A stretch of DNA of 64,000 nt. Origin: an uncultured Clostridia bacterium (GTDB taxonomy: Bacteria > Bacillota > Clostridia > Oscillospirales > Ruminococcaceae). This document shows, in pieces, positions 37,844 to 46,486 of the stretch. The stretch is from the NCBI GenBank assembly GCA_947629785.1, contig CANRFB010000005.1, positions 1 through 64,000 of the forward strand, in the 5' to 3' direction. The notes beneath the pieces were generated by a model. It searched no databases and was not told the origin of the DNA. It worked only from the letters and a program-made list of their open reading frames with translations. Numbering within the stretch: position 1 is the first letter of the stretch; the number at the start of each line of letters is the position of its first letter. Both the position numbers and the translations under genes were made by a program.

Positions 37844-38057
37844 GGGCAGGCTGCAGCCTGCACCCGGTCAGGCTTTATTTAGCTATTTCCCGCCTAAGTA
37901 TACCGTACATTAAGCAATGCTGAATCTACAAAAAATTTTCCCGCCCATATGATATGGACGGGAAATCTATTTACAGATTTAACTTTACTTTACCTCACGG
38001 CAGGCACAAAACGGAAAATCACTGAATAAAGCCTGAAAGGGTCAAGGCTCAGCCTTG
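37844..38057 (+). repeat. MITE-like intergenic repeat, copy B (full length)
   Basis: ggcaggctgcagcctgcacccggtcaggctttatt ... ttcccgcccatatgatatggacgggaaa ... acctcacggcaggca ... gaataaagcctgaaagggtcaaggctcagcc. Confidence 0.7.
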
Positions 38058-38098: not shown

Positions 38099-38160
38099 GT
38101 CAAAAGTGGCGGTGTGTGCATAGAATATATCGAGAAAACTGCACATAAGGAGTGATTCTT

Positions 38161-40281
38161 TTGGGTCTTACCGCCGATTCCGTAGGGAAAAGTGCCTGCG
38201 GCGGAAGCTTTATTCTTGATATAAAAAACGGCGAGAAAGTCGTTGCTCTTGCGGGTAATCCCAATGTAGGGAAATCCACCGTTTTCAACGCACTTACAGG
38301 TATGAAACAGCACACCGGCAACTGGACGGGTAAAACCGTTCAGAACGCGCAGGGACACTGTTCCGTTGGCGAAAATAATTACCTCATGGTGGATATTCCC
38401 GGAACGTATTCCCTGCTTGCACATTCAGCCGAGGAGGAGGTTGCGCGGGATTTTATCTGCTTCGGCGGAACGGACGCGGTAATTGTCGTTTGTGACGCTT
38501 CCTGCCTTGAACGCAACCTGAACCTCGTTTTGCAGACAATTGAAATTACAGAACATACCCTTGTCTGCGTTAATCTTCTGGACGAGGCGAAAAAGAAGAA
38601 AATTTCCGTTGACCTCGAAAAACTTTCGGAAAAATTAGGCGTTCCCGTCTGCGGAACTTCCGCAAGAAGCGGCGCGGGCGTTTCCGAGATGATGGAAAAG
38701 CTTCCGCAAGCGTTCTCCGCGGAAAAAAGGAATTCCCCGCCCGTAATTTACCCCGAAAAGATTGAAAACGCCATACGCATTATTGAACCCGTTCTGGAAA
38801 ATAAAATCCCCCTTTCACCGCGTTGGACGGCAATAAGGCTTCTTGACCGCGACGAGAAATTAAACGCTTCCATAAGCGGATTTGCGGGCTTTGACATTGA
38901 AACCGACGCGGAAATTTCCCGCGCCATTTCGGAAGCGAAAAAATACCTCGCCGGAAACGGCATTTCCGAAGCGGAATTCAAAGATATTATCGTAACGTCA
39001 ATAGTCCGCCGCGCGGAAGAACTTGCAGCGGAGTGCGTAGACCTTGAAAAGCCCGATTATTACGAGCGCGACAGGAAAATTGACCGTATACTTACCCACA
39101 GGATATGGGGCGTTCCCATAATGGCGGCAATGCTTCTGCTTATCTTCTGGATAACCATAGAGGGCGCGAATTACCCCTCGGAACTGCTTTTCGGGGCGCT
39201 GTTCTCACTTGGCGGCAAGCTTTCCCTGCTGCTTTCCGAATGTAATGCCCCCGAATGGTTAAACAGTATGCTTATTGACGGAGTTTACCGTGTTCTTGCA
39301 TGGGTAACGGCGGTAATGCTGCCGCCCATGGCGATATTTTTCCCGCTGTTCACGCTTCTTGAAGATGTGGGGTATCTGCCGCGGGTGGCGTTCAACCTTG
39401 ACAGGTATTTTAAAATTTCCAACGCCTGCGGAAAGCAAGCGCTTACCATGATGATGGGCTTCGGCTGCAACGCCGCGGGGGTAACGGGCTGCCGCATAAT
39501 TGATTCGCCCCGGGAACGGCTCATAGCCATTCTGACAAACAGTTTCGTGCCGTGCAACGGACGTTTCCCCACGCTTATTGCGGTGATAACCATGTTCCTG
39601 ACCGCAGGAACGGCGGGGTTCGGGCAAAGTTTCCTGTCGGTGCTTATACTTACGGGCGTGATAATTCTCGGCGTTCTGCTGACGTTTGTCATGTCAAAAC
39701 TGCTTTCCTCCACCGTTCTGAAAGGCGTGCCCTCGTCCTTTGCGCTGGAACTTCCGCCGTACCGTATGCCCCAGATAGGGAAAGTCATAGTCCGCTCCAT
39801 ATTTGACAGGACGATATTCGTTCTGGGCAGGGCGGCTTCCGTTGCAGCGCCTGCGGGGCTGCTTATCTGGCTTCTGGGAAATATCCATACCGCGGACGGT
39901 TCGCTTCTTGCCGTATGTGCGGAATTCCTTGACCCGTTTGCGCGGTTCATAGGACTTGACGGAGTAATACTTTTAGCGTTCGTATTGGGATTTCCCGCAA
40001 ATGAAATAGTAGTTCCCATAATGCTTATGATGTATCTTTCCACGGGAAAGATAGTGGAATACGAGAACCTCGATTCCCTGAAAAGCATACTTATCGACAA
40101 CGGCTGGAACATCAGAACAGCCCTTTGCATGATGATATTCATGCTGTGCCATTTTCCCTGTTCCACCACCTGCATGACCATAAAAAAGGAAACGGGTAGC
40201 ATTAAGTGGACGCTTTTAGCTTTCTTTCTGCCAACAGCCGTAGGAATTATACTTTGTGCTATGATCGCACAATTTGATTAA
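38161..40281 (+). CDS. FeoB-like ferrous iron transporter (G-domain membrane protein), variant without adjacent FeoA
   Basis: LAGNPNVGKSTVFNALTG, HTGNWTGKTV, VDIPGTYSL, C-terminal polytopic FeoB-like core; TTG start after AAGGAG. Confidence 0.85.
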   Translation: MGLTADSVGKSACGGSFILDIKNGEKVVALAGNPNVGKSTVFNALTGMKQHTGNWTGKTVQNAQGHCSVGENNYLMVDIPGTYSLLAHSAEEEVARDFICFGGTDAVIVVCDASCLERNLNLVLQTIEITEHTLVCVNLLDEAKKKKISVDLEKLSEKLGVPVCGTSARSGAGVSEMMEKLPQAFSAEKRNSPPVIYPEKIENAIRIIEPVLENKIPLSPRWTAIRLLDRDEKLNASISGFAGFDIETDAEISRAISEAKKYLAGNGISEAEFKDIIVTSIVRRAEELAAECVDLEKPDYYERDRKIDRILTHRIWGVPIMAAMLLLIFWITIEGANYPSELLFGALFSLGGKLSLLLSECNAPEWLNSMLIDGVYRVLAWVTAVMLPPMAIFFPLFTLLEDVGYLPRVAFNLDRYFKISNACGKQALTMMMGFGCNAAGVTGCRIIDSPRERLIAILTNSFVPCNGRFPTLIAVITMFLTAGTAGFGQSFLSVLILTGVIILGVLLTFVMSKLLSSTVLKGVPSSFALELPPYRMPQIGKVIVRSIFDRTIFVLGRAASVAAPAGLLIWLLGNIHTADGSLLAVCAEFLDPFARFIGLDGVILLAFVLGFPANEIVVPIMLMMYLSTGKIVEYENLDSLKSILIDNGWNIRTALCMMIFMLCHFPCSTTCMTIKKETGSIKWTLLAFFLPTAVGIILCAMIAQFD

Positions 40282-40289
40282 GTTTTGAG

Positions 40290-40324
40290 AGTTAAGAGTT
40301 AAGAGTTGAGAGGCAGGCTGTAGC
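40290..40324 (+). repeat. Left 35-bp imperfect inverted repeat bounding the small-peptide locus
   Basis: AGTTAAGAGTTAAGAGTTGAGAGGCAGGCTGTAGC; 3 mismatches to reverse complement of 40854-40888. Confidence 0.7.
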
Positions 40325-40440
40325 CTGCACCCAGTCAGGCTTTATTTTGTGATTTCTAACTTAAATATACCGTGCATGGCACAAAGCTAAATCTACAAAG
40401 AAAATTCCCGTTCATATGATATATGAACGGGAAAATTTGT
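40308..40440 (+). repeat. MITE-like intergenic repeat, copy D (half copy)
   Basis: aggcaggctgtagcctgcacccagtcaggctttattttgtgattt...ataccgtgcatg...ttcccgttcatatgatatatgaacgggaaa. Confidence 0.65.
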
Positions 40441-40449
40441 TTTTACATA

Positions 40450-40478
40450 TTGACTTACTTCGACAAATGTGTTATAAT
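40450..40478 (+). promoter_or_regulatory. Sigma-A type promoter for small peptide transcript, containing TTCGACAAA (0A-box-like) in the spacer
   Basis: TTGACT - 17 bp - TATAAT; 40459-40467 = TTCGACAAA. Confidence 0.75.
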
Positions 40479-40510
40479 TTCAATCGGAATACACTAAACG
40501 GTGACGAAAC

Positions 40511-40537
40511 AAAAAAACCGGCTATGCCGGTTTTTTT
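40511..40537. terminator. Symmetric terminator-like hairpin in the 5' UTR
   Basis: AAAAAAACCGGC-tat-GCCGGTTTTTTT. Confidence 0.8.
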
Positions 40538-40573
40538 GTTTTATGCTCACCTAAAAAGGAGGTGACGTTTCAC

Positions 40574-40660
40574 ATGATGGTCTTGGGAGTTGTTCTCCAG
40601 ATAATATCTATCATCATTGATATTGTCGCGTTGCTGACGTCTGGAAACAGAAAGAAGTAA
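40574..40660 (+). CDS. 28-aa hydrophobic small protein, candidate type I toxin
   Basis: MMVLGVVLQIISIIIDIVALLTSGNRKK*; strong SD AAGGAGGTG; absent from the ORF track because of its size. Confidence 0.65.
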   Translation: MMVLGVVLQIISIIIDIVALLTSGNRKK

Positions 40661-40694
40661 CCATATTTTTGCTTGTTAGTCGCACATACCCTTA

Positions 40695-40794
40695 CTTGCT
40701 TGTAAAAATTAACCGCCTAAACTCCACAAATTGACGATTGATTTTTACATTTTATAGATAATTTGGGAGCATGCCGTCACTGGTGTGTTCCTTT
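40695..40794 (-). ncRNA. Candidate antisense small RNA convergent with the small-peptide mRNA
   Basis: Minus-strand TTGACA-17-TATAAT at 40829-40801; RNA would contain a 16-bp stem (40748-40733 / 40717-40702) that pairs better on the minus strand. Confidence 0.5.
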
Positions 40795-40799
40795 TTATT
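40767..40799 (+). terminator. Putative terminator of small-peptide mRNA
   Basis: GGAGCATGCC-gtcact-GGTGTGTTCC followed by TTTTTATTTATT. Confidence 0.5.
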
Positions 40800-40800
40800 T

Positions 40801-40829
40801 ATTATAACCTACAAACTTTTATTTGTCAA
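40801..40829 (-). promoter_or_regulatory. Consensus sigma-A promoter on minus strand for antisense RNA
   Basis: rc: TTGACA - 17 bp - TATAAT. Confidence 0.75.
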
Positions 40830-40853
40830 TAGTTTTTATAATTTTTAATTTAA

Positions 40854-40888
40854 GCTTCAGCCTGCCTCTTAACTCTTAAATCTTAACT
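40854..40888 (-). repeat. Right 35-bp imperfect inverted repeat
   Basis: rc AGTTAAGATTTAAGAGTTAAGAGGCAGGCTGAAGC. Confidence 0.7.
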
Positions 40889-40891
40889 CTA

Positions 40892-42109
40892 TTAAGAGTT
40901 TGCCTTGACCTTATGATAAATTTTCTTGCCCTTTTTGATAATGACTTCCGTTTCGATTTTTATAAGCGCGTTGGGGTCGGTGACCTTAGCATCATCAACG
41001 GAAATCCCCCCCTGCTGAACAAGGCGGCGGGCTTCGCTCTTGGAGGGCGCAAGCGCGGTCTTTACAAGCAGATCAAGAACGTTTATCCCATCAGCGGGAA
41101 TTTCCGAAGCGGGTATTTCGGTGGAGGGCATATCGTCCGTGTTACCCTTGCCGCCGAAAAGCGCTTTCGCACCGTTCTGCGCCTTTATCGCTTCTTCCTC
41201 GCCGTGAACGAGCTTTGTAAGCTCAAAGGCAAGAATTTCCTTTGCCTTGTTAAGCTGACTGCCCTCCCAACCGGACATGGCTTCAATTTCTTCCATGGGC
41301 AGGAATGTCAGCATACGGATACATTTCATAACGTCCGCGTCCGCAACGTTCCGCCAGTATTGGTAGAAATCAAAGGGCGTGGTCTTTTCGGGGTCGAGCC
41401 ATACCGCGCCTTTCTCGGTCTTGCCCATCTTCTTCCCCTCGGAATTAAGGAGCAGGGTAATTGTCATGGCGTGGGCGTCCTTGCCAAGCTTTTTGCGGAT
41501 AAGTTCCGTGCCGCCCAGCATATTAGCCCATTGGTCGTCGCCGCCGAACTGCATATTGCAGCCGTATTTCTTGAACAGCATATAGAAATCGTAACTCTGC
41601 ATTATCATGTAATTGAATTCAAGGAAAGTCAGTCCCCGCTCCATTCTCTGCTTGTAGCACTCGAATGTGAGCATTTTGTTTACCGAAAAGCAAGCGCCTA
41701 CTTCCCGCAGAACGTCGATATAGTTCAGATCCATAAGCCAGTCGGCGTTGTTCACCATGATAGCCTTGCCGTCCGAAAAGTCGATGAAACGGCTCATCTG
41801 CTTCTTGAAACATTCAATATTGTGGTCAATATCCTCTTTGGTAAGCATCTTCCGCATATCGGATTTTCCCGAGGGATCGCCGATCATGCCTGTTCCGCCG
41901 CCAAGCAGTGCAATAGGACGGTTTCCCGCCATCTGCAAACGCTTCATAAGGCAAAGCGCCATGAAATGTCCTACATGGAGGCTGTCCGCCGTGGGGTCAA
42001 ATCCGATGTAGAATGTGGCTTTCCCCTCGTTGATCATTTTTTTGATTTCTTCCTCGTTGGTCACTTGGGCAATAAGCCCTCTTGCAACCAGTTCATCATA
42101 TAAAGTCAT
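40892..42109 (-). CDS. tyrS: Tyrosyl-tRNA synthetase
   Basis: [45 protein letters not shown]. Confidence 0.97.
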
Positions 42110-42224
42110 ATACATTCTCCTATTTTTTGTTTTAAATTATTATTTCCGGAATTTTAATAGTCCATGAAATCATGTAATGATCCCACTTATATCACGACCT
42201 TTCAATGAATTTCACCGTAAAATA

Positions 42225-42457
42225 AAAAAACGCCCTGCTTGTAAGCAGAGGGCGAAATTACCGCGGTACCACCTCAATTTTATCGGGAAGATCCCGACCT
42301 TGGAACGCTTTAACGGGCGCACCCGCATACCGCTACTAAGATTCACGGTACAAGCTCCATGATGTATTCGCCGAAAATTCCGTTATCCTTTTTCACCTGC
42401 CAAGGACTCTCTGAAACGGTTTAAAAACGGCTACTTCTTCACTTCACAGCATTTGGT
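42225..42457 (-). promoter_or_regulatory. T-box leader upstream of tyrS (tyrosine specifier)
   Basis: rc contains GAGGTGGTACCGCGG, terminator CGCCCTCTGCTTACAAGCAGGGCGTTTTTTT, candidate specifier GAATACATC (UAC) and promoter TTGACA-17-TAAAAT. Confidence 0.9.
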
Positions 42458-44240: not shown

Positions 44241-44483
44241 ATGACTCTTGGAGAACTTAAAACAGGTCAGTCTGCCGTAATAACCGAAGTTGGCGGCGAG
44301 GGCGCGCTCCGTTGCAGACTGCTTGACATGGGACTTATTCCCAAAACAAAGGTAATGGTCCGGAAAGTTGCGCCTATGGGCGACCCCATAGAACTTTTCC
44401 TGCGGGGGTATGAACTTACCATACGTCTTGAGGACGCGGAGAAAATTACCATAATTCCCGAGAAAGCAGGTGCTGAAAAATGA
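44241..44483 (+). CDS. feoA: Ferrous iron transport protein A
   Basis: 80 aa FeoA-like: GEGALRCRLLDMGLIPKTKVMVRKVAPMGDPIELFLRGYELTIR; overlaps feoB. Confidence 0.93.
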   Translation: MTLGELKTGQSAVITEVGGEGALRCRLLDMGLIPKTKVMVRKVAPMGDPIELFLRGYELTIRLEDAEKITIIPEKAGAEK

Positions 44484-46486
44484 TATTTGCTCTTGCGGGA
44501 AACCAGAACTGCGGAAAGACCACGCTTTTCAATCAGCTTACCGGTTCAAATCAGCACGTGGGGAACTTCCCCGGCGTTACGGTGGAGGGAAAATCAGGCG
44601 ATGTCCGCGGTCTGAAAAATTGTCAGGTTGTAGACCTGCCGGGCATATATTCCATACGCCCCTATACGGGCGAAGAACGGGTAACGCGGGATTTTCTCAT
44701 TGACGGGAAGCCCGACGCCATTATAAATATTGCCGACGCCACAAATATCGAAAGGAATCTCTACCTTACGCTTCAGCTTATTGAAATGAATATCCCCATG
44801 GTTCTTGCCCTGAACATGATGGACGAAGTCCGCAACAACGGCGGAACGGTGGACGTAAAGGGGCTTTCGGAACGTCTGGGAATACCCGTTCTTCCCATAA
44901 GCGCGGCGAAGAACGAGGGCATAGACGAACTTATCGCCAAGACCGAGGAAATAGCTTCAAAGCAGAAAAAGCCAAAGCGGACGGATTTCTGTTCGGGCGC
45001 GGTACATAGATGTATACACGCTGTTTCCCATATGGTGGAGGACCATGCCCAACTGGCGGGAACTTCCTCAAAATTTGCCGCCACAAAGCTTGTTGAGGGC
45101 GACCCCGACATTAACGGCAAGCTGAAACTCAACGAAAACGAACTTGAAATGATTGAACACAGCGTTACCGAAATGGAACAGGAACTTGGCATGGACAGGA
45201 ACGCCGCCCTTGCGGATATGCGCTACACTTTCATTGAGGAAGTCTGCCGCGACACCGTTGTAAAATGCCACGAAAGCAAGGAACACGCCCGAAGCGTGAA
45301 GATAGACAACATTCTTACCAATAAATACCTTGCGATACCGCTTTTCCTTTGCATAATGCTTTTTGTGTTCTGGATAACATTCGGGTCGGTAGGCGCATGG
45401 CTGGGAGATGCGTTTTCATATGTAATCGACAACGCTTCCGAGTACGCCGACAAAGTTCTTACGGCTTACGGGCTCAATCCCGTGGTGAAAAGCCTTATAA
45501 TAGACGGAGTTTTTGCGGGAGTGGGAAGTGTTCTCAGCTTTCTGCCCACCATAATAACGCTGTTCTTCTGCCTTTCAATTCTGGAGGACAGCGGTTACAT
45601 GGCACGTGTGGCGTTTGTAATGGATAAGCTTCTGCGTAAAATAGGGCTTTCGGGACGGTCATTCGTACCGATGCTGATAGGCTTCGGGTGCAGCGTTCCC
45701 GCAATTATGGCAACAAGGACTCTTGCTTCCGACCGCGACAGGCGAATGACCATATTCCTTACGCCGTTTATGAGCTGCAGTGCAAAACTTCCCATTTATG
45801 CGGTGTTCACGGCGGCATTTTTCCCGAAATACAAGGCGCTTGTAATGCTTCTGCTGTATGTTTCGGGAATGCTTGTGGGAATTATCTGCGGAGTTATAAT
45901 GAACCACACCCGTTTCAAAGGCAAGCCCGTGCCATTCGTAATGGAACTTCCCAACTACCGTATGCCCTCGGCGAAAAGCGTTGTGCTTCTCATGTGGGAC
46001 AAGGCAAAGGACTTTATAGAACGGGCATTTACGGTAATTTTCTTTGCGTCCATAGCAATATGGTTCTTACAGAGTTTTGACACGCGCCTGAATATTGCGG
46101 CGGACAGTTCGGAAAGCCTCCTTGCAAAATTAGGTGCGGCAATTGCTCCTGTATTTGCGCCTCTCGGCTTCGGCGACTGGAAAGCCGCCACCGCGCTGAT
46201 AACGGGATTCACCGCAAAGGAAGCGGTAGTTTCCACGCTGGCAGTGCTGACGGGTTCGGACACAAATTCGCTGAATACCGTACTTTCGGGAATGTTCACG
46301 CCTCTTTCCGCGGCAAGCTTCCTGATATTCACGCTGCTTTACACGCCCTGCGTTGCTGCAATTGCGGCTGTCCGCCGTGAAATGAACAGCAGGCTTTCCG
46401 CGCTCTGGATGGTAATTATCCAGTGCGTGACCGCGTGGCTGACGGCGTTCGTGGTATTCCAGATAGGCGGACTGTTTGTAAAATAA
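44480..46486 (+). CDS. feoB: Ferrous iron transport protein B
   Basis: LAGNQNCGKTTLFNQLTG, NFPGVTVE, VDLPGIYS, C-terminal gate domains. Confidence 0.96.
   Translation: MIFALAGNQNCGKTTLFNQLTGSNQHVGNFPGVTVEGKSGDVRGLKNCQVVDLPGIYSIRPYTGEERVTRDFLIDGKPDAIINIADATNIERNLYLTLQLIEMNIPMVLALNMMDEVRNNGGTVDVKGLSERLGIPVLPISAAKNEGIDELIAKTEEIASKQKKPKRTDFCSGAVHRCIHAVSHMVEDHAQLAGTSSKFAATKLVEGDPDINGKLKLNENELEMIEHSVTEMEQELGMDRNAALADMRYTFIEEVCRDTVVKCHESKEHARSVKIDNILTNKYLAIPLFLCIMLFVFWITFGSVGAWLGDAFSYVIDNASEYADKVLTAYGLNPVVKSLIIDGVFAGVGSVLSFLPTIITLFFCLSILEDSGYMARVAFVMDKLLRKIGLSGRSFVPMLIGFGCSVPAIMATRTLASDRDRRMTIFLTPFMSCSAKLPIYAVFTAAFFPKYKALVMLLLYVSGMLVGIICGVIMNHTRFKGKPVPFVMELPNYRMPSAKSVVLLMWDKAKDFIERAFTVIFFASIAIWFLQSFDTRLNIAADSSESLLAKLGAAIAPVFAPLGFGDWKAATALITGFTAKEAVVSTLAVLTGSDTNSLNTVLSGMFTPLSAASFLIFTLLYTPCVAAIAAVRREMNSRLSALWMVIIQCVTAWLTAFVVFQIGGLFVK

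Follow-up and report, generated by a model that had tools for sequence, protein, structure and literature searches.

Several described type I toxin-antitoxin (TA) systems resemble the locus analysed here. In bsrG/SR4 of Bacillus subtilis SPbeta, a small hydrophobic toxin is paired with a convergent antisense RNA at the 3' end of its mRNA; SR4 binds the 3' part of helix P1 of bsrG RNA and the stem that sequesters the Shine-Dalgarno sequence (SD) is lengthened from 4 to 8 bp (PMC6562991, PMC7430163), an experimental precedent for the closing of an SD by binding at the mRNA 3' end (PMC6562991). The txpA/RatA system of the B. subtilis skin element also has convergent promoters, a long 3' overlap and an SD held in a short stem, and RatA is reported to leave the SD structure unchanged (PMC7430163). 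Convergent promoters are likewise found in par/Fst of pAD1, together with a terminator-like hairpin between the genes, an SD stem-loop and a peptide of about 30 aa, and par is further described as having direct repeats, a single terminator that is shared, and a PXXXG motif in the toxin (PMC7472228). In aapA/IsoA of Helicobacter and in hok/Sok, long-distance pairing between the 5' and 3' ends of the toxin mRNA hides the SD (PMC6733600), while the type I modules of C. difficile (CD2517.1-RCd8 and others) are clostridial, multi-copy and convergent, with toxins that end in a Lys-rich tail (PMC6563280).

Here, we examined a locus in a window of 64,000 nucleotides (the whole stretch of DNA analysed) from an uncultured Clostridia bacterium, and each of these systems shares part of its layout. 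It differs from bsrG/SR4 in taxonomy, in a peptide that, like its relatives in the genus, matches no Hol_Tox model, and in its tandem arrays and MITE-like carriage; SR4, with 180 nt, is about twice as long as the antitoxin predicted here. TxpA (59 aa) and RatA (220 nt) both differ in length from the components of our module. Membership of Fst/par was rejected, since the repeated blocks, which we call X and X', are inverted rather than direct and the peptide has no proline and thus no PXXXG; moreover, there are two terminators here, favoured on opposite strands, instead of one. The locus has SD-hiding hairpins and 5'-3' pairing in common with aapA and hok, but its pairing is predicted to hide the anti-SD and not the SD. 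The C. difficile modules were set apart by their description, the reviewed toxins having 34-53 aa and being mostly prophage- or CRISPR-linked. Judged from sequence and its conservation, the locus is very probably a chromosomal type I TA module, in which an antisense RNA would control a probably toxic membrane peptide of 28 aa.

Table 1. Features of the candidate TA locus, with positions in the window and the evidence for each.
Feature	Position	Strand	Evidence
Left terminal inverted repeat of the MITE-like palindromic repeat	40288..40324	+	37 nt, 92% complementary; numerous copies of the left end in own genome
Left half of the MITE-like element, 5' of the toxin promoter	40312..40422	+	80% identity over 111 nt to empty copy 37845-38055
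Toxin promoter TTGACT-17-TATAAT	40450..40478	+	Consensus 11/12; kept in 25/25 modules
Block X part 1, predicted 5' end of toxin mRNA, CGGAATACACTAAACGGTGACG	40485..40506	+	Pairing with X', duplex -31.9 kcal/mol at window locus
Perfect hairpin (35 nt) and T-run interrupting X, resembling a terminator; possible attenuator	40507..40541	+	Recurs in L028:150-185 and L063 with compensatory changes
Block X part 2, ATGCTCA, running into the anti-SD	40543..40549	+	Predicted fold: pairs with GAGCAT of X'
SD-sequestering hairpin TCACCT-AAAAAGG-AGGTGA	40547..40565	+	Sequence; almost every family member has an anti-SD hairpin
Shine-Dalgarno AAGGAGGTGA	40556..40565	+	Sequence
Toxin-like ORF, 28 aa, MMVLGVVLQIISIIIDIVALLTSGNRKK	40574..40660	+	Profile family, E-values of 2.5e-15 and lower-scoring homologues (own genome, genus); codon constraint
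Candidate antitoxin RNA (~93 nt, from about 40794): X copy at the 5' end and terminator hairpin	40702..40795	-	Covariance model R1
Antitoxin terminator hairpin	40702..40748	-	-11.5 kcal/mol on minus strand vs -9.0 on plus
Block X' and mRNA terminator: hairpin (40765-40792) and T-run, complementary to X	40765..40799	+	-16.0 kcal/mol on plus strand vs -5.4 on minus; covariation with X
Antitoxin promoter TTGACA-17-TATAAT	40801..40829	-	Consensus 12/12; reverse promoter in 25/25 modules
Right terminal inverted repeat	40854..40890	-	37-nt inverted repeat pair

The original prediction had proposed a type I TA, new or divergent, with the txpA/RatA or bsrG/SR4 layout, and the comparison supports it through conservation of the peptide and of the RNA and through the asymmetry of the terminators. 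The elements on which it was built are present as it described them: both promoters, the one on the minus strand with perfect consensus; the hydrophobic, basic-tailed ORF behind an SD; the TCACCT/AGGTGA hairpin overlapping that SD; and a terminator-like hairpin with a T-run at the end of the mRNA. The stem that it expected to favour the minus-strand RNA is indeed more stable there (Table 1). It had overlooked the 37-nt terminal inverted repeats, the 35-nt perfect hairpin and the X/X' complementarity of the mRNA ends. Counts of sites at the locus exceed those in shuffled sequences for terminator-like sites (6 vs 0.6) and promoter-like sites (6 vs 2.6), but the recurrence of the whole window layout at 24 other loci is much stronger against chance than these counts. 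As for the surroundings, tyrS (40892-42115, minus strand) has upstream of it a T-box leader (42245-42456, minus strand; Rfam RF00230, 136.9 bits), and reading of the sequence indicates two feoB-like genes in the window (38152-40281 and 44480-46486), with a feoA-like ORF (44241-44483) ahead of the latter.

The window peptide is small, hydrophobic and charged at its tail, and stands behind an SD, as in type I toxins. Its ORF begins with the first ATG (40574), and its nearest relatives have one ATG only, at the aligned position. Homologues of the peptide and of the locus, which the original prediction had proposed to look for in related genomes, occur in its own genome and in its genus. A DNA search with the whole locus found three more near-full-length copies in the own genome, whose peptides are clear homologues with 46-48% identity to the window peptide, and a peptide profile recovered the 4 copies of the own genome and detected members in 11/21 genus genomes (9/10 of those with high completeness). 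Conservation of the peptide frame, named beforehand as a point on which the prediction could fall, was found: in the aligned core of 18 members, divergence at codon positions 1, 2 and 3 was 0.49, 0.17 and 0.56, with a pN/pS of 0.55, a rough figure since synonymous sites are near saturation. Codon-position divergence and pN/pS therefore indicate selection on the frame at the protein level, chiefly for hydrophobic residues.

In agreement with the statement that the peptide was not recognisable as a known family, Pfam, NCBIfam and PHROGs gave no convincing match to it, and the HMM of the putative holin-like toxin Hol_Tox (PF16935) matched neither the window peptide nor its close relatives in the genus. 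Of 40 peptides encoded on this chassis, 7 do match the HMM at E <= 0.01 (best E 1.1e-7), one of them above the curated Hol_Tox cut-off, while PHROGs gave only single weak matches to chassis peptides. A further peptide type, e.g. MSWNDIFTFALVICNVILIMQNNNNKKK, was seen on the same chassis at four loci (L004, L028:769, L068, L081). No match was obtained in phages and plasmids by tblastn with the peptide of a genus relative.

The RNA side of the module proved to be more widely traceable. The antitoxin RNA, ~90 nt long, was described by a covariance model, R1, which has 90 positions and was built from 16 training sequences of the genus; the window scores 77 bits with R1 (E 1.1e-14), its own copy being in the training set. 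Together with the conserved reverse promoter, R1 points to a putative antisense RNA gene complementary to the toxin mRNA. At the thresholds used, R1 was positive in 19/21 genomes of the genus, 52/199 of the family, 50/297 of the order, 14/392 of the class and 8/399 of the phylum, with up to 15 matches in one genome. About 47 of 61 inspected R1 loci bear an SD-led hydrophobic ORF of 20-37 aa (one of 45 aa), in most cases with Lys/Arg at its C-terminal end, and such ORFs also accompany most of the class- and phylum-level matches. Tandem modules are frequent (e.g. G170:C92); a single 4.5-kb contig (L028:1-4517) was seen to hold at least 4 TA modules with differing peptides.

Rfam 15 gave no match at gathering score for the window locus or for 18 module loci, and at a relaxed threshold the window locus gave below-gathering matches only, mostly of the AT-rich hairpin. 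The named relatives are metagenome-assembled genomes (MAGs) of Oscillospiraceae/Clostridia, several from animal guts. A search of genome contigs with a 20-base motif returned other Oscillospiraceae/Clostridia MAGs and one Devosia record, which is taken as a chance match, and a 14-base motif, too short for the purpose, returned 120 chance-level stretches in viral contigs, with none of 80 fetched matching R1. An RNA arrangement recurring with many peptides in Oscillospiraceae-type gut bacteria is thus apparently a large family, uncatalogued as judged by Rfam 15, and it is this recurrence with many different peptides that upholds the initial guess of a type I TA.

All 25 modules compared have the same succession of parts: toxin promoter, X at the predicted start, anti-SD and SD, ORF, hairpin with T-run, X', T-run and reverse promoter. 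The sequence of X varies widely among subgroups, and each time its own X' is the best or nearly the best partner. The mean X:X' duplex energy was -49.7 kcal/mol for own pairs against -34.1 +/- 1.6 kcal/mol for permuted ones (0 of 10,000 permutations), and -22 kcal/mol when X' was shuffled, although the likeness of X and X' could also be explained by inverted duplication or gene conversion. The antisense strand gives the more stable form of the hairpin adjoining the ORF in 48/61 loci (p 1e-6), and the mRNA strand that of the X' hairpin in 46/62 (p 1e-4), p values across modules overstating independence because the modules are related. This opposite strand bias is expected if the antitoxin RNA terminates at the first hairpin and the toxin mRNA at the second, with a 3' overlap of the txpA/RatA type.

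In predicted folds of the full-length mRNA, X is paired with X'. The SD was predicted to be more accessible with X' than without it in 49/60 modules (mean 0.25 vs 0.12, p 1.7e-8, with the same reservation on independence), and more accessible with the true X' than with a shuffled one in 47/60; the SD opens in these folds because an SD-like GGAG in X' takes the anti-SD CUCC. A change of the SD of the bsrG/SR4 type is therefore predicted in those 49 of 60 family members, but it is absent in the window copy, where predicted accessibility is the same with and without X' (0.41 vs 0.42), so that the switch there may be weak or absent. A lock like that of Hok/aapA would work the other way: the full-length, 5'-3'-paired mRNA would be silent, trimming of its 3' end with removal of X' would turn translation on, and the antisense RNA would mop up the trimmed mRNA. 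Conservation of the long-distance pairing fits such a lock, by which aapA and hok mRNAs do operate (PMC6733600), but we consider it rather unlikely, since in the folds X' takes the anti-SD and not the SD, and its removal makes the SD less accessible in 49/60 modules and leaves it unchanged in the window copy.

We therefore return to a type I module under antisense control and propose that it works as follows. A sigma-70-type promoter would drive an mRNA of ~310 nt for a single-pass membrane peptide of 28 aa, probably toxic, and the convergent perfect-consensus promoter an antisense RNA of ~93 nt with complementarity to the 3' end of that mRNA. Covariation and folding suggest that the 5' block X of the mRNA folds onto its 3' block X'; across the family, this pairing would draw the anti-SD off the SD, so that the SD would be partly exposed. 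Because it is antisense to X', the antitoxin RNA must itself bear a copy of X; this copy, at its 5' end, may capture X', upon which the freed mRNA leader would close over the SD and the duplex of the two RNAs would become a substrate for RNase III. Once the antitoxin RNA was exhausted, the peptide would be made and may act on the membrane. Transcription, toxicity, degradation and the direction of the switch are all inferred here from sequence, conservation, covariation and predicted folds.

In the window copy, the terminator-like hairpin within X probably attenuates transcription of the toxin and might end most toxin transcripts. With this strong hairpin and its T7 only ~55 nt past the predicted start, and with no SD switch predicted, the window copy could be seen as a decayed or attenuated remnant, silenced by the 35-nt terminator hairpin and persisting within the MITE-like repeat. 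Such decay seems quite unlikely, because the ORF, the SD and both promoters are intact in the window and the same hairpin lies within X at two other loci, L028, where the ORF is intact, and L063, with compensatory pairs across the three copies (ACCGGC/GCCGGT, ATCGGC/GCCGAT and GTCGGC/GCCGAC). Recurrence with compensatory changes argues instead for a maintained sub-variant in which the hairpin is probably an attenuator.

The module is also associated with a repeat. Searched against its own genome, the locus gave ~79 matches, mostly to its left end, where the DNA upstream of the module matches a palindromic repeat of ~200 bp present in many copies (dozens of matches). This repeat has the terminal inverted repeats, the many copies and the lack of a transposase inside that characterize MITEs, its ends being blurred by flanking AGAGTTAAGAG runs. 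An empty copy was observed in the window at 37845-38055, just upstream of a feoB-like gene. Among 11 TA loci of the own genome, repeat halves stand on both sides at 5, on one side at 2 (the window copy included) and on neither at 4, and one module of another species (G017) has them on both sides. It is probable that the MITE-like palindromic repeat around the module helped it to spread.

About 10 antitoxin RNAs were found without an intact toxin. At L063, the SD and most of the ORF are gone while the last codons and the complete antitoxin side are kept; at L069, the ORF is apparently frameshifted; and at eight loci (L080, L084, L086, L115, L129, L136, L258 and L259) no toxin ORF is recognisable. 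Two of these (L258 and L259), in other orders of the class, have antitoxin-like RNAs and X'-like blocks that may be relics or serve another function. Among the modules found through the peptide, none was without the antitoxin side, a comparison in which ascertainment differs, orphan antitoxins coming from the RNA search and toxins from the peptide search. With that caveat on the search route, loss of the toxin only would be the bias expected if the peptide were harmful without its RNA. A non-toxin membrane microprotein regulated by antisense RNA, such as a signalling or competence-type peptide, is unlikely given this persistence of the antitoxin RNA, the Hol_Tox peptides on the same chassis and the patchy, multi-copy, tandem distribution typical of TA modules, even though one relative (L039) weakly resembles the competence inhibitor ComI, below cutoff (16.5 bits vs 55).

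With toxins so small and so quick to diverge, type I TA loci are difficult to detect; in this case the conserved handle is the antitoxin RNA and not the toxin, and a single model built from one genus reaches about one sixth of the sampled genomes of the order, including many peptides that escape protein family models. Tentatively, the modules may represent a Clostridia-wide RNA cassette with a constant chassis (X, antitoxin terminator hairpin, X' and two promoters) and exchangeable toxin ORFs, controlled by mimicry of a 5' end, in which the antitoxin RNA copies the mRNA leader and steals its 3' activator, and spread in some species within palindromic MITE-like elements. The modules offer a ready test set for the joint evolution of pairing between mRNA ends (5'-3'), masking of the SD and capture by antisense RNA, and they point to repeat elements as possible carriers of toxin modules in gut Clostridia.
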